Shown in pieces: positions 26,283 to 45,574 of a DNA stretch of 64,000 bases; the first letter of the stretch is position 1, and each line of letters starts with the position of its first letter. The DNA comes from Acidobacteriota bacterium (lineage in GTDB: Bacteria > Acidobacteriota > Vicinamibacteria > Vicinamibacterales > UBA2999). The stretch covers positions 62,001 to 126,000 of the forward strand of contig JAUYQQ010000023.1 of assembly GCA_030697165.1 (NCBI GenBank), written 5' to 3'. A program made the position numbers and the translations under genes. The notes under the pieces were generated by a model, which worked only from the letters and a program-made list of their open reading frames with translations, was not told the origin of the DNA and did not search any database.

Positions 26283-27266
26283 TCAGGCTCTGAGCGTGAG
26301 GACGAGCTTGCCAATGTGCGTTCCGGCCTCCATCAGCCGGTGAGCATCCGCGGCCTGGGCCAGCGGAAACACCTGGTGAACGATCGGCCGGACCACGCGC
26401 GCCTCGAGCAGCGGCCACACCTGCTGGCGCAACTGCTCCGCGATCACGCCTTTCTGGGCCGGGGTTCGCGGCCGCAGCGTCGATCCGGTAATCCACAGGC
26501 GCTTGCGCATCATCATCGAGAAGTCGAGCTCGGCCTTCGGACTTTTCAGGAAGGCGATCTGGACCAGCCGCCCTTCAAGCGCCAGCACGTCGAGGTTGCG
26601 GGCGATGTAGTCGCCGCCGACGATGTCGAGCACGACGTCCACACCGCGGCCATCGGTGGCCTCCTTCGCCGCCACTACCCAATCCGTGGTGCGGTAGTTG
26701 AAGGCATGCGAAGCGCCCAGGCCGCGCGCGGCCGCGCACTTCTCGTCGCTGCCGGCCGTGGTGAGGACGATCGCGCCACGGGCGCGCGCCAACTGAATGG
26801 CGGTCGTGCCAATGCCGCTCGTGCCGCCGTGGATCAGGATGGTCTCGCCTCGCGTGAGCCGGCCACGGTCGAACACGTTGGTCCACACCGTGAAGTACGT
26901 CTCGGGAATCGCCGCTGCCTCGATCATCGTCAAACCGCGCGGTACCGGCAGGCACTGCTCCTGCGGCACGTTCACCCGTTCGGCGTAGCCGCCACCGGCG
27001 ACCAGGGCACACACCTCGTCGCCAATCGCGAACGACGCCGCGCCGGGTCCGAGCGCGGCGACCGTGCCTGCCACTTCGAGCCCTGGCAGATCGGAAGCAC
27101 CGGGCGGCGGCGGATACTTACCCAGCCGCTGAATCACGTCCGGCCGATTGACGCCGGCGGCCACGACGTCAATCAGCACTTCGCCCGGCCCCGCGACAGG
27201 TTCCGGCCGATCGGCAAGCTTCAGGACATCCGCTGGCCCGAACTGTGAGATTTCAACGACCCGCAT
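26283..27266 (-). CDS. NAD(P)H quinone oxidoreductase (zinc-free MDR family)
   Basis: 327 residues. The ATG at 27266 (MRVVEISQFGPADVLKLADRP) is preferred because the longer form enters the repeat element at 27269. Medium-chain dehydrogenase fold: VLIDVVAAGVNRPDVIQRLGKYPPPPG, then the Rossmann motif ILIHGGTSGIGTTAIQLA. It matches the PIG3/TP53I3-like quinone reductase branch and lacks the catalytic zinc ligands. It is the first gene of the operon with MFS and aldo/keto reductase, which hints at carbonyl or quinone detoxification. Confidence 0.92.
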   Translation of the reverse strand: MRVVEISQFGPADVLKLADRPEPVAGPGEVLIDVVAAGVNRPDVIQRLGKYPPPPGASDLPGLEVAGTVAALGPGAASFAIGDEVCALVAGGGYAERVNVPQEQCLPVPRGLTMIEAAAIPETYFTVWTNVFDRGRLTRGETILIHGGTSGIGTTAIQLARARGAIVLTTAGSDEKCAAARGLGASHAFNYRTTDWVVAAKEATDGRGVDVVLDIVGGDYIARNLDVLALEGRLVQIAFLKSPKAELDFSMMMRKRLWITGSTLRPRTPAQKGVIAEQLRQQVWPLLEARVVRPIVHQVFPLAQAADAHRLMEAGTHIGKLVLTLRA

Positions 27267-27268
27267 CA

Positions 27269-27383
27269 AATGCCTCGCACGGAAACACCGAAGCACCGAA
27301 CCATCACCAAGTGTTTGCCCGCAACACAACCAAGACCAATGGTTTCCGTGCTTCCGTGTTTCGGTGTTTCCGTGTCATGCATT
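27269..27383. repeat. 115-bp inverted-repeat element, CGGAAACA family (copy 1)
   Basis: Starts AATGC, then tandem octamers of the CGGAAACA type (ACGGAAACACCGAAGCACC). It ends with inverted copies (CTTCCGTGTTTCGGTGTTTC) and GCATT. The same architecture recurs at 45461-45566. It fills the whole gap between the quinone reductase start and the DUF885 stop. Confidence 0.9.
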
Positions 27384-28714
27384 CACTTCAGTCCTGACGG
27401 CAGCCGTGGCGACGAGAGCAGCGCGCCGAACTCGGCCCACACGCGCGTGGCCGACGCATTGTTCCCGGCCTTGCGCGTGAGATACGCGCGAACGAGGTCC
27501 TTGCCCAGGTTGTAGTTGATCACGTAACTGCGGTACTGATCGACGAACTTCACCCGCTGCTCGGCGCGTGGCGCCGTGTACAACGCGTACTTCTCGAGCC
27601 ACGCCGCCGCGCCGGCGCGGTCGATCGTGCCGTCAAGATACCGGCGGGCGGCCTCGTTGCCGGCATACGACAAACGCTCAACTAGGGCCAGCACGTCGTA
27701 ATACTCCTGCACCCGCTTGCCGTCGAGACCCGCCAGCGGAAACAGCACCTCGCGCTCGAACGTGATGCGCTCGGCGGTCGGGAAGGCCACGTCAATGCCG
27801 TAGTTGGCGGTGCCCTCGGCGATCAGCGACTGGGGCGAGAACAGCGGGTAAACGGTGTATTCAATCCAGCCGCGGTCGCGCACCAGGTTCTTCTCGAGCA
27901 GCACGTTGTAGACGTGATGGCCGGGATAGCCCTCGTGGCACGCCAGGTCAATGGCGCGATCGACGTAGATGGGCAGGTCGGTGTTGACCTGGATCAGGCT
28001 CTTGTAATTCCCCTGGTACCAGTTGTAGCCCGACCACGACTTGCCGGTCACGTACTCGACCGTGAACCGTTCCTCGACCGGCAACTCCAGGTGCGCCAGG
28101 GTGCGATCACGGCAGGCGCGAATGGCCTCGCGAAACACCCGGTCAACGCGAGCGGTGGGGATGACGAATGCCTGCTTGAACCGGTCGTACCGCTCAATCA
28201 GCGAGCCCTCGCCCGGCAGACGGGCCTCGAGCTGCTTCAACACGGCCTCGAACTCCACTTCGGTCTGCGTCGGCGCGACCGCGTCGTACAGGGCCCGCGA
28301 CTCCTCGTCAAACGTCAGCCGCTTGCCTTGCAACATCGCCACCCGTGCCCGCAGCGCCGACATCTGCCGGGCCAGGTACTGCCGGCGCAGCGCCCACAAC
28401 TCGGTGTCCGTCGCGACGGGCCCGCCTTCGCCAGGCTTCGGCGCGGCAGGCTGAGCGGCGATCTCTTTCTCGAGCGCTTCGGCCTGCTGATCGATGGCCG
28501 CGAGCGGCGCCTTGGCCGCCTCGGCCTCCTTGCGCCACTCGGCCGGCCCGTAGAAGGCATCGACGTAGTCGGCGTCGTGCTGCCCCACGGCCAGCACCAG
28601 CTTGACGTAGCGTTCGGCCACGCCGCGCATGGGGTCGGCCGGGGACTGGGCAGTCAGCATCAGGGGAACTCCGGCAAGGGCCAGCACCAGGGGCAACAGC
28701 GTCTTATTTCGCAT
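27383..28714 (-). CDS. DUF885 family putative metallopeptidase
   Basis: 443 residues with a signal peptide (LLPLVLALAGVPLMLTAQ). The family motif HEGYPGHH is near residue 260, the HExxH-like zinc site of DUF885 proteins. A downstream LIAEGTANYGID holds a probable third ligand. An exported zinc hydrolase is likely; no substrate is known. Its start overlaps the end of the epimerase gene by 11 bp, and the stop lies on the edge of the 27269-27383 element. Confidence 0.88.
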   Translation of the reverse strand: MRNKTLLPLVLALAGVPLMLTAQSPADPMRGVAERYVKLVLAVGQHDADYVDAFYGPAEWRKEAEAAKAPLAAIDQQAEALEKEIAAQPAAPKPGEGGPVATDTELWALRRQYLARQMSALRARVAMLQGKRLTFDEESRALYDAVAPTQTEVEFEAVLKQLEARLPGEGSLIERYDRFKQAFVIPTARVDRVFREAIRACRDRTLAHLELPVEERFTVEYVTGKSWSGYNWYQGNYKSLIQVNTDLPIYVDRAIDLACHEGYPGHHVYNVLLEKNLVRDRGWIEYTVYPLFSPQSLIAEGTANYGIDVAFPTAERITFEREVLFPLAGLDGKRVQEYYDVLALVERLSYAGNEAARRYLDGTIDRAGAAAWLEKYALYTAPRAEQRVKFVDQYRSYVINYNLGKDLVRAYLTRKAGNNASATRVWAEFGALLSSPRLPSGLK

Positions 28715-29726
28715 AACGGGAACCGATCGTCGGAATCAGGTAGTCGCGAAACGCGCGGTTGAAGTCGTAAGCGGGGGCGAAGCCCCAGTCGCGGCGGGCG
28801 GCGGTGTCGTCCACGTCCTCGGGCCACGAGTCGACGATGCCCTGCCGTTTCGTGTCGTTCTTCCAGGTGAGGTCGGCGCCAGGGAAGGCGCGCACGACTT
28901 CCTGCCGTACTTCCTCGGCCGACGGATTGAAGGCGGCCAGGTTATAGGCGGTGCGCGTCAGCGACGCCTTCGGCGCGGCGGCGAGCCGAAGCAAGGCCTC
29001 GACCCCATCGGGCATGGCCATGAACGGAATGCGGGTATCGGGTCGCACGAAGCAGGCATACGGCTCGCCCTTCGCCGCGGCATGAATCATCTCGGGCGCG
29101 TAGTCGGAGGTGCCGCCAGACGGCACGGTGAGCGCCGAGATCAGTCCCGGGAAGCGGACGCACCGAAAATCGACGCGACCCGACTGCGTTTCGGCGGCGA
29201 GCTGCTTATAGAAGCGCGCATAGTAACGGCCCAGCTGTTCGCAGTAGAGCTTGTTGCACCCGTACATGGTCGACGGCGTGTTGAAGTCGTCCTCTTTCAC
29301 CTTGCCGGCCTGGCGCTTGGTCGCAAGATCAGGCAGCCCGTAGGCGGCAATGGACGAGGGGTACAGGAAGGTCACCGGCCGGCCATGGGACTCGGCCTCC
29401 CGCTGCGCAAACTCCAGCAGGTTCAGCGTCCCTTCCACATTCACCTGGTGTGCGGTCGTCGGCGTGAACTCCGAACGGGTCGAGAGCAGCGCCGCGAGGT
29501 GATACACGGTTTCGACCTCGAACTCCGACAGCACGCGCTCGAGCAGCGACTTGTCCATGATCGAGCCGGTGACTTCGCGCTGCACTTTCTTGGCCAGCGC
29601 GGGTTCCAGCGGATTCACGTCCAGGGTAATCACCGGCTGTGCGCCGGCCTCGGCCAGGTGCGCGATCAACCCGTGGCCAATCTCGCCGCCTGCACCCGTA
29701 ATCAACACGACCGGCTTACGCATCAA
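28704..29726 (-). CDS. NAD-dependent epimerase, L-threonine dehydrogenase-like
   Basis: 340 residues. Extended SDR: ITGAGGEIGHGLIAHLAEAG (NAD-binding glycines), VYHLAALLS, and the active site YPSSIAAYG with YGCNKLYCE (Tyr-x-x-x-Lys). FRCVRFPGLIS and TAYNLAAFNPSAEEV match the short-chain L-threonine dehydrogenase/UDP-glucose epimerase subgroup. ATG at 29726 or 29723; both overlap the histidine kinase stop. The neighbours on either side overlap by 11 bp. Confidence 0.9.
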   Translation of the reverse strand: MMRKPVVLITGAGGEIGHGLIAHLAEAGAQPVITLDVNPLEPALAKKVQREVTGSIMDKSLLERVLSEFEVETVYHLAALLSTRSEFTPTTAHQVNVEGTLNLLEFAQREAESHGRPVTFLYPSSIAAYGLPDLATKRQAGKVKEDDFNTPSTMYGCNKLYCEQLGRYYARFYKQLAAETQSGRVDFRCVRFPGLISALTVPSGGTSDYAPEMIHAAAKGEPYACFVRPDTRIPFMAMPDGVEALLRLAAAPKASLTRTAYNLAAFNPSAEEVRQEVVRAFPGADLTWKNDTKRQGIVDSWPEDVDDTAARRDWGFAPAYDFNRAFRDYLIPTIGSRYAK

Positions 29727-31593
29727 GACGTTCTCCCGTCACGGCTGGCAGATACACGCGAAAGCTGGCGCCGCGCCCACGATCGCTGACCACTGAAATG
29801 GCGCCGCCGGTCTGGCGAATGATGCCGTAGACCGTGGCCAAGCCGAGGCCGGTCCCGCGACCGGTCTCCTTGGTGGTGAAGAAGGGTTCGAAGATCCGGG
29901 CCTGCGTCGCCTGGTCCATGCCAATGCCGTTGTCGCTGACCGCGAGCAGCACGAACCGGCCGGGCGCCAGCCCCGCTTGCAGCATTTCGGGCGAGTCGGC
30001 CTCGAGGCGGACGTTGGCCGTCTGGACCGTGATCATGCCGCCCGTCGGCATGGCGTCGCGGGCGTTCACGATCAGGTTGAGCAGCACTTGCTCGATCTGG
30101 GCCGGGTCAGCGAGCACCTGGGACAGCGTCGGCGCCAGTTCCTGTTGCAACTGCACGGCAGTGCCAATCAACCGCCGCGCCATGCGCGAGACGCTCGCCA
30201 CGATCTCGTTGACGTCGAGCGCGACCGGTTGCAGCACCTGCTTGCGGCTGAACGCCAGCAGCTGGCGCGTCAGCGAGGCGGCGCGATCGGCGGCGTGCAG
30301 GATCTCGTCCACCTCGGCCGCCATCGCCGGGTCTTTCTTGACCCGGTGCGACATCAGCTCGGCATTCCCGCGAATGGCGGTCAACAGGTTATTGAAGTCG
30401 TGCGCGATGCCGCCGGCCAGGCGGCCGACCGCTTCCATCTTCTGCGCCTGCCGCAGTTGGTCCTCGAGCTTGACGCGATCGCTGATGTCGATTACGGTCG
30501 CCAGGATCGCCGGCTGGCCGCTGAACTCGGTCACCGAGCAGAACGCTTCGACCTGAACCACGGTGCCATCCTTGCGCACGCCGCGCAACGTCAGCTGGAT
30601 GTTCGCGCGTTCGGCGTCCAGCCGCGACAACTGGTCGATAACCAGCGCCCGGTCCTGCTCGTGCAGCAGCGCAAACGCCCACGGCAGGTCGAGCAGTTCC
30701 TGTTGCCCGTAGCCGATGATGTCGGCGCCCTTCGGGTTGACGTAGACCAGGCGGTCGTTCTGCAGGATGTAGACGCCGACCAGCGACTGCTCCACCAGGC
30801 CGCGGTACTTGGCCTCGGCAGCGCGCAGGGCGTCTTCGGCGCGGCGCCGTTCGGTGATGTCGCGGGCCACCGCCTGCATGCCGGTGTACTGCCCCTTGGT
30901 GTCGAACACCAGCCACGCGTTCTGCCCCAGCCACACTTCCTGCCCAGACTTGGTCACGCCCGGGAACTCGACATAGGAATTGAGCACGCCCTGGCTGACC
31001 TGCTTGTAGTAGTGCTGCAGGATCGTCGGGCGGTAGTCGGCGCGGATGAACTCGGTGAAGCGGCGGCCAATCACCTCGTCGTTCGAATAGCCGAACACGC
31101 GCAACGTCTCAGGATTGACGAAGCGGAAGTACCCCTCGGCATCGGCTTCGAAGATGATGTCGGCCGCGGCGTCGAACAGGTGGCCATAGCGGTCTTCGGT
31201 CACCCGCAGGGCGTCCTCGGTGGCCTTACGCTCGGTCACGTCGCGATAGTGCACGACGATGGCGCCGACCCTCGGCTCGGCGAGCAGGTTACGGGCCACA
31301 CCTTCGGTCCAGCGAATAGTGCCGTCGCGATGGCGGCACCGGAACGCGCCGGTCTGGGGCGCCTCGGGATGGTCGAACAGCTCGCGCACCAGGTCTTGCC
31401 AGGCCGCCAGATCCTGCGGTTCAACGATGTCGCGGACGCGCAGGCCGACCAGGTCGCCTGGTTCGAAGCCCAGCACGTTCGTGGTGGCGGGATTCGCCCA
31501 GCGGATGACGCCGCCGATATCCACCAGCACCACCGCATCGACGCTGAAGTTGATGAGCGCGGCGAGTTGCTCGACGCTGGGCGTCTCGTTCAC
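29716..31593 (-). CDS. soluble multi-PAS sensor histidine kinase
   Basis: 625 residues with no signal peptide or membrane helix. Three PAS units: NFSVDAVVLVDIGGVIRWAN, FDAAADIIFEADAEGYFRFVN and VEQSLVGVYILQNDRLVYVN. The dimerisation helix is GRLAGGIAHDFNNLLTAIRGNAELM, with the phospho-acceptor near His397. HATPase boxes are LLNLIVNARDAM, VSDNGIGMD and GRGTGLGLATVYGI. There is no receiver domain, and no response regulator lies next to it, so the partner is elsewhere. Confidence 0.93.
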   Translation of the reverse strand: MNETPSVEQLAALINFSVDAVVLVDIGGVIRWANPATTNVLGFEPGDLVGLRVRDIVEPQDLAAWQDLVRELFDHPEAPQTGAFRCRHRDGTIRWTEGVARNLLAEPRVGAIVVHYRDVTERKATEDALRVTEDRYGHLFDAAADIIFEADAEGYFRFVNPETLRVFGYSNDEVIGRRFTEFIRADYRPTILQHYYKQVSQGVLNSYVEFPGVTKSGQEVWLGQNAWLVFDTKGQYTGMQAVARDITERRRAEDALRAAEAKYRGLVEQSLVGVYILQNDRLVYVNPKGADIIGYGQQELLDLPWAFALLHEQDRALVIDQLSRLDAERANIQLTLRGVRKDGTVVQVEAFCSVTEFSGQPAILATVIDISDRVKLEDQLRQAQKMEAVGRLAGGIAHDFNNLLTAIRGNAELMSHRVKKDPAMAAEVDEILHAADRAASLTRQLLAFSRKQVLQPVALDVNEIVASVSRMARRLIGTAVQLQQELAPTLSQVLADPAQIEQVLLNLIVNARDAMPTGGMITVQTANVRLEADSPEMLQAGLAPGRFVLLAVSDNGIGMDQATQARIFEPFFTTKETGRGTGLGLATVYGIIRQTGGAISVVSDRGRGASFRVYLPAVTGERLDA

Positions 31594-31687
31594 CGCGCGC
31601 TCCGGACAGGCATCTGCCTATTCTAGGCTACAGATTGACGCCGCTTGGCGCAGATACCGCTAACGCAGTGGCAGCCGGGCGCGGCGC

Positions 31688-31921
31688 TCACCAGAGCGCG
31701 GCTTTCATCTCGGCAATCGCGATCTCGACCTGCCCCAGTTCCGCGAGCACCCGCTCGACCTCGGCCAGGGTGGCGGCCAGCGCCTCGGGCGGCGGCACGC
31801 TCCCGCGCTTGACCTCCCACGCCAGGTCGCGGGTCGTCTCGGCGCAGGCCCGGCACACCTGGAGGGTGTGTTCGTGCGCGTCGATCAGCCGCCGGACTTC
31901 CTCTTGTTCCTCGGGAGTCAC
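31688..31921 (-). CDS. small helical hypothetical protein
   Basis: 77 residues from a GTG at 31921 (VTPEEQEEVRRLIDAHEHTLQVCRACAETTRDLAWEVKRGS). It is mostly helical, with one CRAC pair and a C-terminal LAELGQVEIAIAEMK helix. It follows the DUF6526 gene by 11 nt on the same strand. No family recognised; a longer reading frame upstream overlaps DUF6526 and is unlikely. Confidence 0.55.
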   Translation of the reverse strand: MTPEEQEEVRRLIDAHEHTLQVCRACAETTRDLAWEVKRGSVPPPEALAATLAEVERVLAELGQVEIAIAEMKAALW

Positions 31922-31932
31922 TGCAGGGCGCC

Positions 31933-32358
31933 TCAGGTGCGGTAGGGATCGGGGCGCCAGGTCCGGATCGACGCCTTGATGGCCTTGGGGGCCAGGTTCT
32001 CGCGCGCCGCGCGTTCGAGCAGGGCACCCAGTTCCTCGTCCGACGCAAACCGCAGCGCGACGATCTGCTTGGCCGACAGCTTGGCCAGCAAGGCATCCTG
32101 GCCGGCCGCCAGGACCTCGGCGCAGCGCACCTTCACCTCGAGCATGATGATGCGGTCCTGCAGCGCGACGGTGTTCCAGCGCGTGATCGAGAGCAGGATC
32201 ATGACCGCGACGATGAGGGTGAAAAACGCCCAATGATCGGTGTGCCACCCGAGGTGGAGGTCGCCGTACATCAGCCCCAACGTCAACAGGATGAAGCCCG
32301 TCGCCCAGTAGGTGGGCACGGGATGGTAGATGTGGTGCTCGTAACTCTGCTCTGCCAT
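31933..32358 (-). CDS. DUF6526 family membrane protein
   Basis: 141 residues (MAEQSYEHHIYHPVPTYWAT). Two hydrophobic helices (GFILLTLGLMYGDL and AFFTLIVAVMILLSITRWN) are followed by a soluble tail with LQDRIIMLEVKVR and SDEELGALLERAARENLAPKAIKASI. The start codon shares one base with the MBL gene stop (TAATG), so it is co-translated with it. Function unknown. Confidence 0.8.
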   Translation of the reverse strand: MAEQSYEHHIYHPVPTYWATGFILLTLGLMYGDLHLGWHTDHWAFFTLIVAVMILLSITRWNTVALQDRIIMLEVKVRCAEVLAAGQDALLAKLSAKQIVALRFASDEELGALLERAARENLAPKAIKASIRTWRPDPYRT

Positions 32359-33290
32359 TACTTCAGCTTTCCGTCGATCTCTTCGTAGACCTTGCGCACG
32401 GCTATCGGCCCCTGCTGCTCGGCGAGGTACCACTCCTTGTAGGGTCCCCAGTTGGCCTGCTTCGCAGCCTCGGCCGCCGGCAGCCCGAGCTGGTGCAGGC
32501 GATTCACCTCGGCGATCACGGCGCGCATCGCCTTCTGGTACTCGACCAGCTCTTCCCGCGCCGCCTTCGGCTCTTCGATGAAGCCATGGCCCGGCACGAA
32601 CTGCACCACGTCCATGGCCAGCGCCTGGTCGATCACGCCCACCCATTCGGTGGGATACGCCGAGCGCATGGCCGGGAACACGCGATTGAGGTAGACCTCG
32701 CTCATGAACAGGAGCTTCTGCTGCGGCAGGTAGACCAGCAGGTCGCCGCCGGTGTGGGCGCGGCCGGCGTAGATCGCCTGCACCTCGATGCCGCCCAGGT
32801 TGATCACCTCGCGGTCGCCGGTCATGGCCGGCGCGTCCAGCTTCATGGCCGCCTTCGACGCGGGCGTCACGATATAGGTGATGCCCTGTGGCAACACCGC
32901 GTTACCCGCGGTGTGATCGCCGTGATCGGAACCGACGATATACCACTTGACCGGCTTCGGCGTGACCTTGGCGATCGCGTCCAGCAGCTTCTGGGTCGCG
33001 GCCGGACTGCCCTGCCCATCGGCAATCAACACGCCGTCGTCACCGACAACGAACAGCGACACCGTCGTCATGCCGGCGCTGTGAAAGTCTTCGTAGCCGT
33101 AGACGTTGTCGAGGATCTTGGTGGTGCGGGGAAACTCGGCGCGGCTCAAGCCGCGCTTGATGGGGTCGGCGGTTCTGACCTGCGCGGCAGACCTGTCCGC
33201 CATAGCGCGAAGCGCGACGGTGGATGACGCCGACACCACCAGGGCCACAGATAACGCTGATAACGCAGACTTCAGAATTCTTGAAGGCAT
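32358..33290 (-). CDS. secreted MBL-fold metallohydrolase
   Basis: 310 residues with a signal peptide (ILKSALSALSVALVVSASSTVALRA). The metal site is WYIVGSDHGDHTAGN, with later AGRAHTGGDLLVYLP and FVPGHGFIEEP (distal His). The HxHxDH motif is altered to DHGDH, as in some class B3/quinoprotein-relay relatives. The start at 33290 follows a TACCAT box by 8 nt. The repeat at 33320-33376 lies just upstream. Confidence 0.88.
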   Translation of the reverse strand: MPSRILKSALSALSVALVVSASSTVALRAMADRSAAQVRTADPIKRGLSRAEFPRTTKILDNVYGYEDFHSAGMTTVSLFVVGDDGVLIADGQGSPAATQKLLDAIAKVTPKPVKWYIVGSDHGDHTAGNAVLPQGITYIVTPASKAAMKLDAPAMTGDREVINLGGIEVQAIYAGRAHTGGDLLVYLPQQKLLFMSEVYLNRVFPAMRSAYPTEWVGVIDQALAMDVVQFVPGHGFIEEPKAAREELVEYQKAMRAVIAEVNRLHQLGLPAAEAAKQANWGPYKEWYLAEQQGPIAVRKVYEEIDGKLK

Positions 33291-33319
33291 GGCCCGTTAT
33301 GGTACCACGCACAATCGAA

Positions 33320-33376
33320 ACAGGAGATGAGGAGCTCAGGAAACCTAAAGTGGCTCCTGACCTCCTGGCCTCCTGT
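33320..33376. repeat. AGGAG-octamer inverted element
   Basis: Three 8-bp units (AGGAGATG, AGGAGCTC, AGGAAACC) are followed by inverted counterparts (GGCTCCTG, ACCTCCTG, GCCTCCTG). It sits 15 nt upstream of the presumed -10 box (33299-33304) of the MBL gene. Confidence 0.75.
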
Positions 33377-33386
33377 TGTAGCCTTT

Positions 33387-34439
33387 CTAGCGTCCGTCGA
33401 TCAGATCGCCCAGTCCGCCGACGCGGTCGAGGATTGAGCCCTCGCCCTTGCGCGAGCCGCCGGTTTGCGGGGCCGCGGCGTAAATGCGATCCGCCATGCG
33501 CGACAGCGGCAGCGACTGCAGCCACACGCGGCCGGGTCCCCGGAGGGTCGCGAAGAAGATGCCTTCGCCGCCGAACACTGCCGTCTTGATCCCGCCGACG
33601 AACTGAATGTCGTAGTTCACGCTCGGCTGCAGCGCGACCAGGCAGCCGGTGTCGACGCGCAGGGTCTCGCCGGCGCCCAGTTCGAAGTGATGAATGGTGC
33701 CACCCGCGTGGACGAAGCACAGGCCATCGCCCTCGAGTTTCTGCATGATGAAACCCTCGCCGCCGAACAGCCCGACGCCCAGTTTCTTCTGGAACGCGAT
33801 GCCGATGGACACACCGCGGGCGGCGCACAGGAAGGCATCCTTCTGGCACACCAGGTGCCCGCCAAGCGCGCGCAGGTCCATGGGGATGATCTTGCCGGGA
33901 TACGGCGCGCCGAACGCGACCTTGTGCCTGCCCTGGCCCTGGTTGGTGAACACCGTCATGAACAGGCTTTCACCGGTCAGGATGCGCTTGCCGGCGCCGA
34001 GCAGGGCGTCCATCACGCCCTTGGATTGCTGCTGGCTGCCATCGCCGAAGATGGTCTCCATCTGAATGCCGCTCGTCATGTACATCATCGAGCCGGCCTC
34101 GGCCACCGCGCCTTCGCCCGGGTCGAGCTCGACCTCGACGAACTGCATCTCGTTGCCATGGATCTCGAAGTCAATGTCGTGGGCGCGGCGGCCCGGCGGC
34201 GGTGGTGGGACAAAGCCCGCTCCGGCGGCCTGGCCCGCCGAAGCGCCGGCGGGGCCTTTGACAAACGGCGCGAAGGCAGCAACGTCCTTCACCTTCTGCC
34301 ACGACGTCATGCCCGCGGTGAACACGAGCGTTTCGGCGTCGATGCTGCCGTTTTGCAAGTTCGAGACGATCTCGCTCTGCGCCACCGGGCCTACCTGATG
34401 GCCACCGATGGCCATGTACCACTGATTCGAGCCGTCCAT
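33387..34439 (-). CDS. GYF domain plus AIM24 (TIGR00266) protein
   Basis: 350 residues. The N-terminal 60 residues are a bacterial GYF_2 domain ([34 protein letters not shown]). After a Gly/Pro linker comes the AIM24 beta-helix ([57 protein letters not shown]). AAGGAG lies 6 nt before the ATG at 34439, one of few clear Shine-Dalgarno starts here. Function unknown; tail [22 protein letters not shown] is disordered. Confidence 0.92.
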
Positions 34440-34453
34440 GTGTTCTCCTTGTT

Positions 34454-34578
34454 AGTAGCCAGATGCCAGTAGCCAGATGCCAGTAGCGCCAGTTTCCAGT
34501 AGCCAGTAGCCAGTAGCCAGTAGCCAGCAATCAGAGAGCACTTCGTCTCTGGATACTGGCGTCTGGATACTGGCTACT
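34454..34578. repeat. TAGCCAG heptamer array with inverted end
   Basis: Units of TAGCCAG and ATGCCAG run to about 34528. A short inverted segment (CTGGATACTGGCGTCTGGAT) follows and runs into the stop of the TerB-like gene at 34574. It fills the gap between the AIM24 start and that gene. Confidence 0.9.
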
Positions 34579-35218
34579 CTTCCTGCGCGTCGATCTTCGC
34601 CGTGGTCTCGGCTTCGATGGCGGCGACCGCCGCCGGATCGAGTCCCAACCGGTGCGCCAGCTGCGCCAGGTAGATGCGTTCGGCGCCGGTCACCACTTCA
34701 TCGGCCCGCACAATCGTAAACGCCAGCGTGTAGAACTCCTTGCGGGCGGCCGGGTCGGTCACGCCCTGGACGATCTCCGAGAGCGGCCGCGAGGTCTGCG
34801 CCAACTCGGGCTCGATGATCGCTTCGAGTCCAGCGGCCCTGGCACGGGCCAGGATCGCCTCGCGCTCCACCGCGGTCAACTCACCGTCGGCACGCGAGGC
34901 CGACACGGCCAGGCGAATCAGCTGCAGCACGGGGCTCGGAAGGTCGGCCGGCAGCACCGGAATCGGCGGCACTGTGGCACCCATGGCACCAGCACCCATA
35001 GGCACACTAGGCACCCCAGGCACCTGAGGCACATTCTGTCCCTTGACGCTGTCGTAAATGCCCCAGACCACGCCCGCCGCCGCCAACACAGTACTGGCGG
35101 TCAGGAAGCCGCCGTTGCCGGTGATGTACTTGGTGGCGCGCCGGGCGCGCTTGCGTCCCGAGCGGCCCATGGCGCCGCGTAAGACCACGGAAAGGATGTC
35201 AGCCGGATTGTTGAACAC
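34574..35218 (-). CDS. TerB-like (DUF533) protein with membrane anchor
   Basis: 214 residues. N-terminal FNNPADILSVVLRGAMGRSGRK and a hydrophobic stretch (LTASTVLAAAGVVWGIYD) precede a Val/Pro/Gly linker coded by the repeat at 34974-35034. The C-terminal TerB fold has LQLIRLAVSASRADGELTAVEREAIL and LGLDPAAVAAIEAE, including the acidic DGE motif of this tellurite-resistance-like family. Biochemical role unknown. Confidence 0.85.
   Translation of the reverse strand: MFNNPADILSVVLRGAMGRSGRKRARRATKYITGNGGFLTASTVLAAAGVVWGIYDSVKGQNVPQVPGVPSVPMGAGAMGATVPPIPVLPADLPSPVLQLIRLAVSASRADGELTAVEREAILARARAAGLEAIIEPELAQTSRPLSEIVQGVTDPAARKEFYTLAFTIVRADEVVTGAERIYLAQLAHRLGLDPAAVAAIEAETTAKIDAQEE
34974..35034. 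repeat. GGCACC nonamer array inside TerB-like gene
   Basis: Units such as TGGCACCCA, AGGCACACT and AGGCACCCC code for the PQVPGVPSVPMGAG linker on the minus strand. It belongs to the same family as the intergenic arrays at 44938-45006 and 61243-61300. Confidence 0.7.
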
Positions 35219-35310
35219 TTCGTTCGCCCCTCAGTGATGAAAATACTGGCAGAAGGCCGCAAATGTTCCAATTGAAAAACGGATGGATCGCGCGCTAATA
35301 GACGGCCTTC

Positions 35311-35385
35311 CCTACAAAGCCGCGAAGCGGCCGAGCCCTACGAGGGGCGCAGCCCGAGCCCCACGAAGGCGCGGAGCGCCGAGCC

Positions 35386-35389
<4 letters not shown>
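35311..35389. repeat. tandem CGAAG..CGGAGCGCCGAGCCCTAC element
   Basis: Three imperfect units of about 25 bp, each ending in GAGCCC(T/C)AC, fill the end of the 167-bp gap before the ABC exporter stop codon (35386-35388) and overlap it. The rest of the gap shows nothing recognisable. Confidence 0.7.
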
Positions 35390-37311
<1,922 letters not shown>

Positions 37312-37323
37312 AGGGTGCTGTCT

Positions 37324-37341
37324 ATCCGCCTACAGGCGGAT
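37324..37341. repeat. 18-bp palindrome, copy of the CCGCCT..AGGCGG family
   Basis: ATCCGCCTACAGGCGGAT is a perfect palindrome except for its central pair. Related copies lie at 42482-42499 and 54861-54878. Confidence 0.85.
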
Positions 37342-37362
37342 GCCACATCTGTCGGGATGGCT

Positions 37363-37746
37363 TCAATTCAACGCGTACGGGACGGCGAGCGTAAACGGGG
37401 CGATGCGCGCTTCGAACGTGTCGCCGTCGGCCTTCACCATGGTGTAACTGCCGTGCATGGTGCCGACCGCGGTCTTCAAGTGGCAAAAGCTGTTGTAGTC
37501 GTAGGTGGCGCCCGGCGCCAGCACCGGCTTCTCGCCGACGACGCCCTCCCCGCGCACTTCCTCTTCTTCACCATCGGTGTTGGTGATCACCCAGTGACGG
37601 CTCAGCAGCTGCGCGGTGTCCTCTCCCACGTTCGAGATACGAATGAAATAGGCGAACCAGTACTCGTGGTCCTTCGCCGAACTGCGTTCGGGGATGAACT
37701 TCGTCGTAACTTGCACGCGGATGCCGTTAGTCGTCGTATCGCTCAC
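37363..37746 (-). CDS. apaG: ApaG protein
   Basis: 127 residues from GTG 37746 (VSDTTTNGIRVQVTTKFIPE). The fibronectin-like ApaG fold is complete: HEYWFAYFIRISNVGEDTAQLLSRHW, ITNTDGEEEEVRGEGVVGEKPVLAPG and YDYNSFCHLKTAVGTMHGSY. GATAAT on this strand ends 7 nt before the start. A longer in-frame start at 37869 would overlap the repeat at 37774-37797 and the UbiD gene. Confidence 0.95.
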   Translation of the reverse strand: MSDTTTNGIRVQVTTKFIPERSSAKDHEYWFAYFIRISNVGEDTAQLLSRHWVITNTDGEEEEVRGEGVVGEKPVLAPGATYDYNSFCHLKTAVGTMHGSYTMVKADGDTFEARIAPFTLAVPYALN

Positions 37747-37773
37747 GCCAACGATTATCCCACGCTTGTCGCG

Positions 37774-37797
37774 CCGTAGCCTTGGCGAAGGCGGATC
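37774..37797. repeat. GTAGCCTTGGCGAAGGCGG element
   Basis: GCCGTAGCCTTGGCGAAGGC recurs as its reverse complement at 42427-42450, next to the CCGCCT..AGGCGG palindrome. It is a short dispersed repeat. Confidence 0.75.
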
Positions 37798-37802
37798 ACA
37801 CG

Positions 37803-39608
37803 CTAATCGAGGTGCCCGCGCTCGGCGTCGCCCATCTCGACCTTGCCGCCCGGGAAGTACTCGTTCCACCTGGTACTAACCTGTGATGCCACGTCCGGGC
37901 GGCAGGTTACTTCGCGGGGATACCAGGGCTTCATGCGCGCGTCGATCACCACCGGCGGCTCGTACGCAATGTGGTTCCGCACCACCTGCTGGGCGGCCGA
38001 ATGGATGTCGGCCGCCGGCTCGAAGCGCGTGAACGTCGTCCACAGGAAGTTCATGTCGCTGCGCGTGGCGCGCTCGGGCTCGTCGCTGACAATCACCAGC
38101 GGCCACCCGGCAAAGGCCGGGTGCGCGGCCACGCGGCCGGGCGCCTGCGGGTCGTCCGCAAAGCTCCGCGTCCCCACCACCAGGCACCCGCCGCAGAACA
38201 CGCGCACGTCGGTAACGTCGGACGGCGGCGGCACCGGGGGCGCAAACGTCCGCGGCAGGTCGCGGACGGGATCGCCCAGGCCGAGCCACACGCCCTTCGA
38301 ACCCTCATTGACCACAGGACCGGTGTAGTCGAGCGTGTCCATCGACAGGTTCGAGAACACGTACAGGTCGGTGCGCGGGTCGGTGCGCGCCAACACGTGC
38401 TCCAGCGTGGCGCGGAAGTCCCGAAGGTCCACATGCTGATCGGTCAGCAGGATGAACTTGGTCAGCGACAGCTGGCCCTCGCCGAGAATGCGGAAGGCGC
38501 TGGCCATGGCTTCGCGCTTGTAGCGCTGCTTGACCACGGCACCGGCCAGCGAGTGATAGCCGGTCTCGCCGTACGACCACAACTGCTCCACCGCCGGCAT
38601 GACCAGCGGGAACAGCGGCGACAGCAGGTCCTGCAACAGGTCGCCGATAAAGAAATCTTCCTGCCGCGGCTTGCCGACGACGGTGGCTGGGTAGATGGCG
38701 TCCTTGCGGTGCGCGATCTGCGAGACGTCGAACACCGGGTAATCGTGCTGCAGGGAGTAGTAGCCGTAGTGATCGCCGAACGGGCCTTCGGGCCGGCGCA
38801 CGCGCGGCGCGACCTGCCCCATCAAGGCGAACTCGGCGCTCGCGATCAGGGGATGGGGATGACCGTTGGGACCCGCGACCTGGGGCAGGCGCTCGCCCGC
38901 AATCAACGAGGCCAGCATCAGCTCCGGCAGGTTCTCGGGCAGGGGCGCGATCGCCGACAGTATCAGCGCTGGCGGCCCCCCCAGGAACACCGTGACCGGC
39001 AGCGCTTCGTTCCGCGCTTCGGCGCGGGCATAGTGAAACCCGCCGCCCTTGCCAATCTGCCAGTGCATGCCGGTCGAGGTGCGGTCGTAGACCTGCATGC
39101 GATACATGCCGAGGTTATGTCCCGGCTTCTCGGGATGGTGCGTGTAGACCAGCGGAAAGGTGACGAACGGTCCCCCGTCATCGGGCCAGCAGGTCATGGC
39201 CGGGAGCTGATCGAGCCGCACATCGCTCGTCACCACCTCGCGCACGGGACCGGTGGCCAGGCGCTTCGTCCCGACCTTCAACAGTTCGAGGCCCACGTCG
39301 CGAGCGCCCCATAACTTCGCAGGGGTCGGCGGCAGCATCGTCTCGGCCAGGTGCACGATGCGCTTGATGAGGTCGAGCGGCCTCTTGCCAAAGGCCAGTT
39401 CGGCCCGCCGCGGTGTGCCGAACAAGTTGGTGGCGAGGGGGAATGCCGCGCCCTTGATGTTGGTGAACAGCAGCGCCGGGCCGCCGGCGGCGATCACGCG
39501 CCGGTGGATCTCGGCAGCTTCCTGGTTGGGATCAACCGGCGCGGTGATCTCGACCAGGTCGCGATCGCGGCGCAGGTGATCGAGAAACGCTCTAAGGTCT
39601 GGGAACAT
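37803..39608 (-). CDS. UbiD family decarboxylase
   Basis: 601 residues; ATG 39608 (MFPDLRAFLDHLRRDRDLVEI), with an alternative at 39626. It shows the UbiD hallmarks: PALLFTNIKG, the prFMN-binding region (HYYSLQ-like YGYYSLQHDYPVFDV), GPFGDHYGYYS, and the C-terminal SDEPERATRSDMNFLWTTFTRFEP. Such enzymes use prenylated FMN to (de)carboxylate aromatic or unsaturated acids; the UbiX partner is not in the window. It overlaps the amidohydrolase by 17 bp. Confidence 0.92.
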   Translation of the reverse strand: MFPDLRAFLDHLRRDRDLVEITAPVDPNQEAAEIHRRVIAAGGPALLFTNIKGAAFPLATNLFGTPRRAELAFGKRPLDLIKRIVHLAETMLPPTPAKLWGARDVGLELLKVGTKRLATGPVREVVTSDVRLDQLPAMTCWPDDGGPFVTFPLVYTHHPEKPGHNLGMYRMQVYDRTSTGMHWQIGKGGGFHYARAEARNEALPVTVFLGGPPALILSAIAPLPENLPELMLASLIAGERLPQVAGPNGHPHPLIASAEFALMGQVAPRVRRPEGPFGDHYGYYSLQHDYPVFDVSQIAHRKDAIYPATVVGKPRQEDFFIGDLLQDLLSPLFPLVMPAVEQLWSYGETGYHSLAGAVVKQRYKREAMASAFRILGEGQLSLTKFILLTDQHVDLRDFRATLEHVLARTDPRTDLYVFSNLSMDTLDYTGPVVNEGSKGVWLGLGDPVRDLPRTFAPPVPPPSDVTDVRVFCGGCLVVGTRSFADDPQAPGRVAAHPAFAGWPLVIVSDEPERATRSDMNFLWTTFTRFEPAADIHSAAQQVVRNHIAYEPPVVIDARMKPWYPREVTCRPDVASQVSTRWNEYFPGGKVEMGDAERGHLD

Positions 39609-40710
39609 CGTAAACGGACCGTCCACCGATCATAGTCAACACCGACCGGATTCGGCCGAGTTCTTCTTCGCCAGCCGTGAACGGGTCGCGGTCGAGCACC
39701 GCGAGGTCGGCGACGGCGCCGACGATCAGCCGGCCCTTGTTGGTCTCCTGGAACTGGCTGACCGCCGATCCGTAGGTCGCGGCGACGAGCGCCTGCTCCA
39801 CCGTGAGCGCTTCCCCACCGAGAGCCGGCGCAGTGGCAAGGCTGATCATGGCGAAACCCAGGAACGCGTCGCCCGACCCGAGTCCGAGCGCCACGCCGGC
39901 CTCGAGAAACGAGCGCAGCGGCGCGCCCGGCCGCGGCACCTGCACCGCCACCGCTCCAAGCCTGGGCAGCCGCGCGAACCACGCCGCCGGCATGGCCACC
40001 GCCTGCTCGACACGAGGCCGCTTCGCCTTCCATACCTCGGCCACGCCGTGGCGCTCGAGCGCGGTGACGTAGTCCTCTGCCGCCTGCGCGTCGAGACCGG
40101 CCACGGCCAGTGGATCCTCGCTGCCGTACGCCCAGCCGACGGCCTGGCGCATGCGCTCCCCCTCGGACCCGGCCAGCGCGAATCCCATGCCGCGAACGTC
40201 GAGTCGCGACGTCGGTTGCGGTGGGAAGAAGGGGCGGCTGTCTCGATTGGCGCCGGTCCCATCGGGCATCGGCATCCGCAGGACGCGCACCCGCATGGGC
40301 AGCTGCGCTTCGCGGAACGCTGCCACGGTCTCGGCCACGGGACCGAGCGAGAACACCTGGAGTGACGTCACGCCCTGCGCCACGGCATCGGCGCCGAGCA
40401 CGCGCACGCTGGCCGGGGTCGCGCCCGCCAGCGTCAGGTGCGCATCGTTGAGACCGGGGATGACCACGCGGCCGGCAAGGTCGATGCGGCGGGTCGCGCT
40501 TCCCGCTGCGCGGCTAATGTCTGCGGACTCGCCGACCGCGATGACCCGTTCACTGCTGATGGCGAGCGCCTCGGCCCAGGGTTGCGACGGATTGGACGTG
40601 AAGACCTTGCCGTTGACGAGAACGGTGTCGGGCGCGGGCGCCGCGCAGGCGCCCAGGCAGAGCGCCCATGCCAGGATCGCGACGCGCAGCAACGGACCAC
40701 CGTACGACAC
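39592..40710 (-). CDS. degenerate YtcJ-like amidohydrolase
   Basis: 372 residues against about 550 for YtcJ relatives. The likely start is GTG 40710 with leader LLRVAILAWALCLGAC, a lipobox. The N-terminal sandwich is intact (TVLVNGKVFTSNPSQPW) and the C-terminal one too (NKGRLIVGAVADLAVLDRDPF), but the metal site reads GLNDAHLTLAG with Leu-Thr instead of Val-His. The central barrel is much shortened. It is probably catalytically dead or internally deleted. The fragment still reads open and overlaps UbiD. Confidence 0.7.
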   Translation of the reverse strand: MSYGGPLLRVAILAWALCLGACAAPAPDTVLVNGKVFTSNPSQPWAEALAISSERVIAVGESADISRAAGSATRRIDLAGRVVIPGLNDAHLTLAGATPASVRVLGADAVAQGVTSLQVFSLGPVAETVAAFREAQLPMRVRVLRMPMPDGTGANRDSRPFFPPQPTSRLDVRGMGFALAGSEGERMRQAVGWAYGSEDPLAVAGLDAQAAEDYVTALERHGVAEVWKAKRPRVEQAVAMPAAWFARLPRLGAVAVQVPRPGAPLRSFLEAGVALGLGSGDAFLGFAMISLATAPALGGEALTVEQALVAATYGSAVSQFQETNKGRLIVGAVADLAVLDRDPFTAGEEELGRIRSVLTMIGGRSVYDVPRP

Positions 40711-40712
40711 GT

Positions 40713-42392
<1,680 letters not shown>

Positions 42393-42426
42393 TAGGACTC
42401 TTGACTATAGCAGACGCGCTCCGGCT

Positions 42427-42499
42427 AACCGCCTTCGCCAAGGCTACGGCTGGTCAAGAAGCCGGAGGCTACAGATGTGGTGTCCGCCTTTAGGCGGAC
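42427..42499. repeat. composite dispersed repeat with GTCCGCCTTTAGGCGGAC palindrome
   Basis: CCGCCTTCGCCAAGGCTACGG (42429 on), then CTACAGATGTGGTG, then GTCCGCCTTTAGGCGGAC at 42482-42499. The palindrome supplies the last three residues and the TAA stop of the VOC gene (42490-42492). Confidence 0.85.
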
Positions 42500-43473
42500 G
42501 TGATTTCGATGAGCTCGATCGCCTCGCGGCTGGGGCCTTCGATCATGACTGCGCGATACGGCCCCACCTTGTAGGGCTGTTGCAGGAACGTCACGCCACC
42601 GGCGCGCAGCTTGGCGACCCACGCGTCGAGATCCGTGACGCTTAGCGCGATGTGGTCCATCAGGTGGCCCCGGCTGGGCGCCGCCGGCGTGTCGCCCTGG
42701 TTCATGTACCAGAACAGCGAGACATCACCGAACACGGTGTTCGTGACCGACGGCGTGCGATACATCCCGCCATGTTCGAGGGCCGGCCACGTCTTGTCGG
42801 GACCGCGCTCAACCCGGCAGTTGTCCGCGGTCCGCACCGGCTGGTTCGCTGCCTGGCGGACCGGCACGTTCAAGTGGCTGCGATACCAAATCTGCGCACA
42901 GAACGGCTGGTCGTGGAAGAAGTGGACGTGATTGAAGCGCTCCATGGGCATGTTCCCCTGGTACTCCACCATCGCGTCATCCGGACCGCGCAAATAGGCG
43001 AACCCGGCGCCCAATGTGGGCTTCACGCCCCTGGCCTTGGCGTCGGCAATGCCCGCTTGCGTCAGCCCCAAGGCACCGCCGGCGCCGGGCCAGGTATCGG
43101 CACTCGTGGACACGGTGCCGCTGCCGTCACCCGTGTAAAGCGGGAGCAGGGTCGCGCCCCGCTCGACAAATGACTGGATGCTCTTGTGCACGTTGGTGAC
43201 GTGCCAGCCGAAGTGCCAGAACGCGGTTTGCGGCTGGGTCGGAGGCGGCGTCGTCACCTTGTTGAACAGCAGGAGCACGTTGTTCGGCGAGTGCAGCGCC
43301 GGCTGTCCGGCAAAGGTCGTCTTCGACGTGCTCGGGAACAGCTTCGTGTAGAACTCGATCGCCGCGCCGGGGTTGATCGAGTTCAGGTGAAGGTGATGAA
43401 AACCCGGCGGTGGGAGCTGGGCCGGCTGAACCAGACCGGCCACGGCCACCAACGCCACAATCCAGCGAATCAT
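42490..43473 (-). CDS. secreted tandem VOC/glyoxalase-like protein
   Basis: 327 residues with a signal peptide (MIRWIVALVAVAGLVQP). Two vicinal-oxygen-chelate units: FHHLHLNSINPGAAIEFYTKLFPS with WHFGWHVTNVHKSIQSFVERG, and a second DHIALSVTDLDAWVAKLRAGGVTFL. The His/Glu metal-type residues are plausible but no activity can be named. The final residues and stop come from a repeat palindrome. ATG 43473 overlaps the M16 stop by 4 bp. Confidence 0.82.
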   Translation of the reverse strand: MIRWIVALVAVAGLVQPAQLPPPGFHHLHLNSINPGAAIEFYTKLFPSTSKTTFAGQPALHSPNNVLLLFNKVTTPPPTQPQTAFWHFGWHVTNVHKSIQSFVERGATLLPLYTGDGSGTVSTSADTWPGAGGALGLTQAGIADAKARGVKPTLGAGFAYLRGPDDAMVEYQGNMPMERFNHVHFFHDQPFCAQIWYRSHLNVPVRQAANQPVRTADNCRVERGPDKTWPALEHGGMYRTPSVTNTVFGDVSLFWYMNQGDTPAAPSRGHLMDHIALSVTDLDAWVAKLRAGGVTFLQQPYKVGPYRAVMIEGPSREAIELIEITSA

Positions 43474-44922
43474 GCTTCGGGCTTCAGCGTGACCAGCGTG
43501 TAGCGGTCCATCGGGAAGTACTTCTGGAACATCGACTTCACGATCTCGGGCGTCAGTGAGTCGGTGCGCTCGAGACGCTTGTTGATGCGGCTTGGGTCCC
43601 AGCCGAACATGTGGACCGTTTGCATGGAGCCCATCCAGTACGCGTTCTGACGGGCATTGGTCTCGAGATCGCGCCTCTCCGCTTCCTTCACCTTGTTCAC
43701 ATCGTCTTCGGTCGGCCCCTCGACCTTGAGACGCTCGATCTCCTTGAGCGAGGCGGCCACGAGCTTGTCGGCATTCTCGGGCGAGCTGCCAAACTGGATG
43801 ACCATGGCCCCGTAGCCCTTGAACGGGGGGGAGTTGTTGAACCCAACCGAGACGCCGTAGGTACCGCCCAGTTCCTCGCGCAGGATCTCGCGCAGGCGGG
43901 TGCTGAGCACCTGCGAGGCGGCGCGAGCGCGGTGCATTTCGTATTCGTCAAAGCCCGGATCGGCGAAGAACGACAACACCGTCTGGCTGGCCGGCTCCTT
44001 GCCCTTGTTCACTTCCTCTTTGACCACGCCCACCGGGAACTTGACCCCCATGTCGCGATGCGCGGACGACTTCTTGCCCTGCGACGGCAGGGTCGCGACC
44101 CACTTCTCGAGCAGCGGGGTGATTTCGTTGACGGTGAAGGCACCGACGAAGAAATAGGTGAAGTCGGCGGCGTTGGCGAACCGCGCCTGGTAGAACGACT
44201 TCATGGTGTCGAGGTTCAGCAGCGGCACATCGGCCGGCGTCATGGCGACTGCGCTGTAATGATTCGACGAGTTGACTTGTCCGACCTTCTCGCCGAAGAC
44301 CGCGCGGGGATTCTGATCGCGGTTCTGGAGCGAGGCGGCCAGACGGCGCTTGATCAGGTCAAGCACCTCGGGGGTCATGTTGGGCGCGGTGTGCGCGAGG
44401 TAGTTGAGCTGCAGCGCCGTGTCGAGGTCGCGCGGCGTGCTGGATCCGCTGATCCCTTGCGTGTACTCGCCGACGTTGGGCGAAGCCTGGGCAATCTTGC
44501 CGGCCAGCATCTTGCTGAGGTCCACCGGGCTCAGCCCGCCCATGCCGCCAATGCCGACCATGGCCGTGGCCAGGCTCGCGCTCTTGAAGTCGGCTTCGCT
44601 GGCCAGCGACACGCCCCCGGGCGCGTAGGCGGTGAACAGGACCTGATCGTTCTTGAAGTCGGTGGGCTTGAGCCACACCTCGACCCCGTTCGACAGCGTC
44701 AGTACCGTGGCCCCAATCTCCCCCACCTCGCGACGTGAGGCCACCGTGCCGGCCGGCGGCACCGCCCGAGCGCACCGCGGGGTCGACCGGCAGTGGCCGA
44801 TCGAGCGCCAGCTCCGCCGGCACGGCCGGCGCCTGCGACGCGGCGACCTGCGCGCGCGGAATGGCCACGAGAGCCGTCACCAATAACACCACTGCAGCCA
44901 CGGCGGAACTCAAGCGACTCAT
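43470..44922 (-). pseudogene. M16 zinc peptidase with internal deletion and frameshift
   Basis: The first 60 codons from ATG 44922 encode a signal peptide and the start of a pitrilysin-type protein (MSRLSSAVAAVVLLVTALVA, ending LDRPLPVDPAVRSG). Around 44760 the frame changes, and 43470-44762 continues as the C-terminal half of an M16 peptidase (SNGVEVWLKPTDFKNDQVLFTAYAPGG through MDRYTLVTLKPEA). The N-terminal catalytic half with the HxxEH motif is absent, so about 450 residues seem deleted compared with full-length relatives. An open fragment from 44762 (MPPAGTVASRREV) could still be made. GGGAG lies 8 nt before the ATG. Confidence 0.75.
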
Positions 44923-44937
44923 TCAACACTCCCTCTT

Positions 44938-45006
44938 GGCACCCTTGGCACCGGCACCCTGGCACCCGCCCGGCACAATAGGCCCCGTAGGCACCCCAGG
45001 CACCCA
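44938..45006. repeat. GGCACC nonamer array before dut
   Basis: Imperfect 9-bp units such as TTGGCACCC, CCGGCACCC and TAGGCACCC. It ends 1 nt before the TACTAT box of dut, replacing any -35 region. Confidence 0.9.
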
Positions 45007-45007
45007 T

Positions 45008-45013
45008 TACTAT
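45008..45013 (+). promoter_or_regulatory. -10 box TACTAT, leaderless start of dut
   Basis: TACTAT ends 6 nt before the ATG at 45020, without a Shine-Dalgarno. It directly follows the repeat array. Confidence 0.5.
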
Positions 45014-45019
45014 TCTCTA

Positions 45020-45451
45020 ATGCGCCTGAAGATCAAACGTCTGGATTCATCCATCGGCCTGCCCGAACCCGCCACCGCCGGCGCCGCCGGCTTTGACCTC
45101 GCCGCCGCGGCTGACATGGAGATTCCGGCCCGAAGCATTCGATTGGTAGGCACTGGCCTGGTGATCGCCGTGCCCGACGGCCACTTCCTGGGGATATTTG
45201 CGCGCAGCAGCACGCCGCTCAAGCGCGGACTGATGGTCGCCAACGGGGTAGGCATCGTCGACGCCGACTACTGCGGGCCCGCCGACGAGATCAAAATCCA
45301 GTTGTTGAACGTCACCGATCAGCCCGTGCAGGTGAAACGCGGCGACCGCCTGGCACAGGGTGTGGTACTGCCCTGCCCCCAGGTGACGTGGGACGAAGTG
45401 CCGGAAATGGCCGCCCCCACCCGCGGCGGGTTCGGCAGCACGGGATCTTAA
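45020..45451 (+). CDS. dut: dUTP diphosphatase
   Basis: 143 residues. All five trimeric dUTPase motifs are present: AAGFDLAAAADM, FARSSTPLKRG, GIVDADYCGPADEIKIQLLN, RGDRLAQGVV and APTRGGFGSTGS. It hydrolyses dUTP to dUMP, protecting DNA from uracil. It is a single gene ahead of the repeat at 45461 and dinB. ATG 45020 is set by the leaderless promoter. Confidence 0.96.
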   Translation: MRLKIKRLDSSIGLPEPATAGAAGFDLAAAADMEIPARSIRLVGTGLVIAVPDGHFLGIFARSSTPLKRGLMVANGVGIVDADYCGPADEIKIQLLNVTDQPVQVKRGDRLAQGVVLPCPQVTWDEVPEMAAPTRGGFGSTGS

Positions 45452-45460
45452 CCCCTTCTC

Positions 45461-45566
45461 AATGCGGCGCACGGAAACACGGAAACACCGAAACAAATAC
45501 TCATTGGGTCCGTCCCATCCGTTGGCATTCGTGCTTCCGTGTTTTCGTGCTTCCGTGTAACGCATT
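45461..45566. repeat. 106-bp inverted-repeat element, CGGAAACA family (copy 2)
   Basis: Begins AATGC and carries octamers ACGGAAACACGGAAACACC. A unique core follows, then inverted copies (TTCCGTGTTTTCGTGCTTCC), ending GCATT. It is the same layout as 27269-27383. It ends 8 bp before the dinB start. Confidence 0.9.
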
Positions 45567-45574
45567 CAGCAGCC

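Follow-up and report, generated by a model that had tools for sequence, protein, structure and literature searches.

Intergenic octamer-bracketed units of an Acidobacteriota genome share their word and termini with a cassette that carries a GxxExxY gene

MITEs are short, gene-less units with inverted ends and a target-site duplication, and have an autonomous parent with a transposase. REPINs consist of two inverted blocks around a variable core, and their partner gene is flanked by such blocks. Excerpts of PMC3733652 give a GTAG or CGTC tag at the repeat end as a feature of the REPIN/RAYT system. In Geobacter metallireducens, tandem octanucleotide arrays paired on opposite strands are described in excerpts of PMC2700814 (2009) as predicted global regulator sites; for class 2 the consensus is TCTCCGTS[Y], which reads on the opposite strand as a CACGGAGA-like word, and the correspondence of IHF/HU genes to the sites is stated there to be unknown. 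The TAACTGA repeats of Beggiatoaceae are nearly all direct, according to an excerpt of PMC4679880. GxxExxY proteins (TIGR04256) are named after their motif only, and no function for them was found in the literature searched. The name does not occur in the main text of PMC2700814, and an excerpt of PMC8934634 mentions it in one unrelated passage. No printed link between GxxExxY and octamer arrays was found in the literature searched, which was mostly without subscription papers and preprints, and text searches of that literature for PDDEXK_3 and for five octamer arrays returned no papers.

The window analysed here is a stretch of 64,000 nucleotides from an Acidobacteriota bacterium (contig JAUYQQ010000023.1). 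Two units in it follow a common plan, in which a core has an array of CACNGAAN words on its left and an inverted array on its right:

27269..27383, 115 bp: element 1, between a minus-strand zinc-type dehydrogenase gene and the stop codon of the next minus-strand gene
27269..27273, plus strand: element 1 left terminus, AATGC
27278..27301, plus strand: element 1 left array, three CACNGAAN words
27302..27343: element 1 core, private to this copy (no other core matches at E 0.01)
27344..27374, minus strand: element 1 right array, four inverted words
27379..27383, minus strand: element 1 right terminus, GCATT, whose final base is the final base of the minus-strand TGA stop codon
45461..45566, 106 bp: element 2, between dut and dinB
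45470..45493, plus strand: element 2 left array, three CACNGAAN words
45494..45527: element 2 core, without relation to the core of element 1
45528..45557, minus strand: element 2 right array, four inverted words, in part degenerate
45562..45566, minus strand: element 2 right terminus, GCATT, 8 bp ahead of the dinB ATG

Element 1 reads AATGC-CTCG-CACGGAAA CACCGAAG CACCGAAC ... TTCCGTGC TTCCGTGT TTCGGTGT TTCCGTG-TCAT-GCATT. An earlier note on this DNA had placed both units at exactly these coordinates, with AATGC and GCATT ends and inverted octamers, and was right that the cores differ, as neither window core matches any other core at E 0.01. Pfam confirmed dinB, dut and the zinc-type dehydrogenase as neighbours, and the noted distance of 8 bp to dinB holds. 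The first unit does end on the last base of a stop codon, that of the minus-strand gene 27383-28714, but the name DUF885 given to this gene did not stand: neither Pfam (E 0.001) nor NCBIfam (E 0.1) gave a family for its protein. With at most one mismatch, CGGAAACACNGAA was found 8 times in the window against 0.28 expected, a number reached in none of 100 shuffles; one of the 8 matches, at 62018, lies outside elements 1 and 2. The window also holds a third element at 34454-34571, made of inverted tandem heptamers (GTAGCCA/GATGCCA), whose word type is that of the bracket around a four-helix-bundle gene at locus L309.

The two units belong to a family. Across this genome (G000), CACGGAANCACNGAA had 102 matches with at most one mismatch, compared with 2 for the reversed control, and the search for copies that the earlier note had proposed gave at least 26 octamer units, 24 of them outside the window. 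This number is a lower bound because the pairing script covered only the window and 23 picked loci of this genome. Together with 40 congener loci, fetched from about 62 places with octamer matches counted by eye, its input came to 64 sequences and yielded 54 paired units. Four more pattern matches (L091-L094) were lone matches without arrays. A general inverted-repeat detector was swamped by GC-rich noise, and element 2 was missing from its list. Contig C15 of this genome carries a 513-bp pair of long inverted GGTGCC-type octamer arrays at 144463-144975 (in L296).

Of the 54 units, 26 had two recognised termini, with the consensus A/ATGC...GCAT/T; an A stood ahead of ATGC in 22 and a T after GCAT in 24 of these 26. 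When the 26 units were examined for target-site duplications, the other 28 being left out, no 5-bp direct repeat was found at 36 offsets, and 4-mer direct repeats reached a count of 2 at the most favourable offset (p 0.01, uncorrected for the 36 offsets). At the two variable word positions, the arms of the same unit had an identity of 0.327, compared with 0.374 when shuffled (54 units); at the conserved positions the values were 0.935 and 0.934. The arms do not covary, and it is therefore the word that is conserved and not the pairing of the arms. The element is defined by its octamer arrays, not by the 5-bp ends alone. The median distance from a unit end to the neighbouring stop codon was 1 bp, with 29 of 46 within −5 to +20, in a count that used naive longest ORFs and in which 12 of the 54 units lay inside a called ORF; distances to start codons are unreliable with such gene calls.

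Among 60 genomes, matches to CACGGAANCACGGAANCAC (at most one mismatch, both strands) were found in 8, this genome included. The counts, with the reversed control in brackets, were 55 (0) in G000, 42 (6) in G007, 36 (0) in G001 and 26 (0) in G005, and lower in G002 (11; 1), G004 (2; 1), G011 (1; 0) and G039 (1; 0); the congeners G003, G006 and G008 had no matches at this threshold. In G052, of the same order, the reversed octamer control was itself abundant (46 and 37 matches), which suggests another word family.

A 20-kb query spanning both window sites was mapped onto eight congeners, and 14 junction stretches were read. Element 1 was missing from all six congeners that span its site (G003 does not cover the site, and G001 covers it in part), with collinear flanks. 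The genes almost touch in G004 and G007, while G008, G005 and G006 have an element of CACGAAG words there and G002 a short CACGAAG stretch; the G001 contig begins inside the site and shows the CACGAAG type. Element 2 was missing from all seven congeners that span its site, again with collinear flanks, G005 being without coverage. G001 and G003 have next to nothing between the genes, and the remaining congeners have other short sequences, such as GGTGCCAG repeats in G006. Three copies at unrelated loci of this genome are alike in core and right edge. Absence at orthologous sites together with dispersed copies argues for insertion, and the finding of different words at one and the same junction suggests that some sites are tolerated or preferred. 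At six aligned junctions with units in both this genome and a congener, the words were kept and most cores had diverged, the exceptions being L070, with an alignable and possibly coding core, and in part L072. The unit core at L070 (about 4005-4124), also seen at L262 and L275, is alignable across three species, and the right array of L070 is apparently read as N-terminal coding sequence of the downstream gene. The idea that element 1 replaced an older CACGAAG element in place was rejected: its core was no closer to the same-site CACGAAG elements than shuffled cores were (summed p 0.26; one of four comparisons had p 0.047).

The suggestion that the units are mobilised and MITE-like is thus partly borne out, by defined ends, dispersed copies, related copies at three loci and relatives that lack the units at collinear sites, the last a check proposed in the note; the target-site duplications named alongside were not found in the 26 units with both termini. 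The likeness to MITEs extends to small size, the lack of genes, inverted fixed ends, presence or absence at orthologous sites for elements 1 and 2, and a larger gene-bearing relative with such ends. In addition to the duplications, the difference lies in this relative, which carries a nuclease gene and no known transposase.

The relative is a cassette in which a GxxExxY gene is bracketed by ends of the same kind, found at one junction in three genomes (G000, G005 and G007). In this genome (C9:398701-399296) the gene has a left array on one side and a further unit on the other, and at the orthologous junction of G005 and G007 it lies between the two arrays. The junction is empty in G006 and G008; G001 has half an element, G002 a CACNGAA left array with a CAGGAG-word element and G004 a right array of the CACNGAG type, while in G003, where the neighbouring gene differs, no array was present in the 240 bp read. 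The word and the termini of the window units are thus common to a gene-bearing cassette of the same genome, and the units differ from it in being gene-less. All CACNGAA-type nuclease genes that were found represent this one orthologous locus. The G005 gene has one in-frame stop, and the gene of G000 is without the first 8 profile positions; the latter may be decayed, so movement in this genome may be past. G001 and G002 carry short units, and no nuclease gene of the CACNGAA type was found in them. The words differ at the remaining GxxExxY genes of the genus, for example CACGGAGN, CACAGAGA, CACGAAGG, CAGATTAN and CAGGAGNT. At L105, L107, L111 and L118 the GxxExxY gene is separated from the outer word arrays by long GC-rich palindromes.

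All 19 members examined matched TIGR04256, and Pfam assigns the protein to PDDEXK_3 (PF13366; PD-(D/E)XK nuclease). Alignment A1 shows no variation at D55, K67, Q79 and the H, G, E and Y of the GxxExxY region, and almost none at E65; the presumed active-site residues D, E and K are all fully or almost fully conserved. An AlphaFold2 model of the G007 protein had a pLDDT of 92.8. Lambda exonuclease and LHK-Exo took the top Foldseek ranks, with no E-value of 0.001 or below. By structural alignment, the closest of the listed solved chains was 4ic1 (SSO0001, which we take to be a Cas4 protein), with Z 9.5 over 98 residues; the other listed chains, at Z 5.6-7.6, were mostly restriction-fold nucleases, Hjc resolvases included, a range in which chance arrangements are common. 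A sequence-profile search of solved structures gave no match at E 1, and PADLOC matched two families, each by one member. The modelled fold supports a nuclease, without showing its substrate.

The association of such genes with bracketing words is wider than the genus. Five GxxExxY query sequences were used in a wide scan, from which the best 80 of 573 relatives were kept (the best-80 set); the record titles of this set cover many bacterial phyla and, among archaea, Methanophagales and Methanoperedens. Loci were scored for at least two words per side, in inverted orientation and within 300 bp, with a word list compiled after inspection of these loci and applied equally to the controls. The words were present at 60 of 78 loci of the best-80 set (2 of the 80 had less than 150 bp of flank) and at 14 of 25 loci of the genus, with 11 of 25 failing; 25 of the 29 genus loci were scored, L103, L108, L121 and L123 being at contig edges. 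The controls gave none at shifted positions (0/66 and 0/67, or 0/133), at Y1-transposase loci (0/26) or at PF05635 loci (0/26). The 60 loci carried CACNGAG (45), CGCNGAG (6), CACGAAG (5), CACAAAG (2) or CGCRAAG (2), and of the 18 others in the best-80 set, 9 had a weaker bracket and 9 none. Linkage of the GxxExxY nuclease gene to octamer ends is thus shown.

Inverted flanks of any sequence, at a score of at least 16, were found at 22 of 25 GxxExxY loci of the genus (shifted positions 0/50) and at 46 of 67 loci of the best-80 set (shifted 4/137), the other 13 of the 80 having less than 500 bp of flank. In a swapped-partner control on the same 67 loci, a score of at least 14 was reached by 39 of 200 swapped pairs, while the figure for real pairs was 55 of 67 and for shifted ones 8 of 116; this control is inflated because most loci have one word in common. 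A clear period was seen at only 4 of the 22 genus loci and 5 of the 46 loci of the best-80 set, because the words vary and their spacing runs from 8 to about 11 bp, and it is therefore the word count and not the period that carries the claim. Array period was also rejected as a separator between gene families, since at the threshold applied flanks were called aperiodic at 18/22 genus loci, 41/46 loci of the best-80 set and 15/15 Y1 loci.

On our leading reading, to which we assign a probability of about 0.58, the window units are gene-less, non-autonomous octamer-bracketed elements moved in trans by the GxxExxY nuclease. The firmer part is that they are genuine elements of the octamer type linked to GxxExxY, dispersed and inserted, and a mover role for the nuclease is the mechanism we consider most likely. 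The ends are short inverted tandem arrays of an 8-bp word, closed by AATGC and GCATT, and insertion is between genes and often right at a stop codon. Longer relatives have the GxxExxY gene, coding for a compact PD-(D/E)XK nuclease, between the arrays. This nuclease would recognise its own word as repeated binding sites and cut there, the cutting would drive movement, and repair or copying would then place the element in a new intergenic site. Short units that retain the word arrays could be moved in trans.

The main alternative, which we consider unlikely, is that the GxxExxY gene is a passenger or homing gene that invaded ready-made octamer elements, the arrays having spread otherwise, for example by host recombination or repair or by an unrecognised enzyme. 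It owes its place to four-helix-bundle genes with comparable brackets. Inverted flanks were present at 20 of 26 loci of this unrelated family (PF05635) in the genus (shifted positions 1/52), 8 of them with a clear 7-bp period (L309, L310, L318, L326, L328, L330, L331 and L338); 4 of 30 loci had been lost as too short, both here and in the Y1 set. Brackets of tandem words are thus not unique to nucleases, and this family has a similar plan, with heptamers at the 8 periodic loci. Gene-less units also far outnumber cassettes (26 to one of this word in G000), and elements of other words occupy the same junctions. Against a passenger, the word tracks the nuclease tree. When word type was placed on the protein tree, 16 changes were needed over 78 rows compared with a shuffled mean of 27.2, and none of 500 shuffles was as low; resolution of the tree is low, with 49 of its 98 inner branches open and 6 starred, and 23 of 101 proteins were left out as unlabelled. 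The result was the same for the wide-scan rows alone, from the best 80 of 573 (11 changes against 15.6; 0/500), and for the genus alone (5 against 9.1; 0/500). Within the genus, the CACNGAA proteins of the window family (L115 and L124) form a sister pair (100*) that falls within the CACNGAG clade (support 94 and 85), as if the word of the window family had shifted by one letter along with the protein. In the best-80 set, loci whose protein is about 45-60% identical to the query still have brackets, beyond what would be expected for a chance guest. This coupling of word and protein may nevertheless reflect linkage alone.

Co-occurrence across genomes did not serve as decisive evidence. The CACNGAG pattern was found in 29 of 297 genomes of the phylum, and PF13366 in 26 of these 29 (105 of 297 overall), but PF05635 was found in 27 of the 29 (139 of 297 overall), so that co-occurrence does not discriminate GxxExxY. 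With kinship ignored, GxxExxY was still associated with the pattern among PF05635-positive genomes (p 2.7e-5), and PF05635 among GxxExxY-positive genomes (p 0.004).

It is improbable that the arrays are not mobile and are maintained by selection, be it as sites of a global regulator such as IHF/HU or as gene-end RNA hairpins or terminators. The Geobacter metallireducens arrays were, in the excerpts of PMC2700814, interpreted as regulator (IHF/HU) sites; classes 1 and 2 are alike to ours in their tandem repeats of about 8 bp, opposite-strand pairs and variable distance, and the class 2 word is close to CACNGAG. Our units moreover abut stop codons, and orthologous sites keep their words despite the divergence of most cores. 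Against such a role speak the congeners that lack the unit at both window sites, the related copies at unrelated loci, the nuclease genes inside the brackets, the arms, which do not covary, and the absence of Rfam matches at gathering scores in 26900-46000. Mobilisation as REP/REPIN-type units by a RAYT (Y1 tyrosine transposase) is highly improbable: the units are short, intergenic and REPIN-like in having a variable core between two inverted conserved blocks, this genome has 6 Y1_Tnp matches and 15 of 26 Y1 loci of the genus have some inverted flanks (none periodic; shifted 0/52), but here the blocks are tandem octamers without arm covariation, the partner is a PD-(D/E)XK protein, and none of the 26 Y1 loci has the words on both sides.

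Movement by the GxxExxY nuclease has a broader form, which we hold only tentatively: GxxExxY proteins may move a class of mobile element of their own, in which a single compact PD-(D/E)XK nuclease would read inverted ends made of tandem words about 8 bp long and would mobilise gene-less units in trans as well, with many co-evolving word types in bacteria and archaea, and the heptamer-bracketed four-helix-bundle genes may be a parallel class.

The link to word-bracketed elements gives the GxxExxY proteins a testable role. It offers an explanation for intergenic octamer repeats and supplies pairs of word and protein for binding tests. If the proteins do act as movers, DNA would be moved in an unusual manner, by a Cas4-like nuclease together with repeated words. 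Together, the gene-less units and their nuclease-bearing relatives point to a little-noticed type of mobile DNA.
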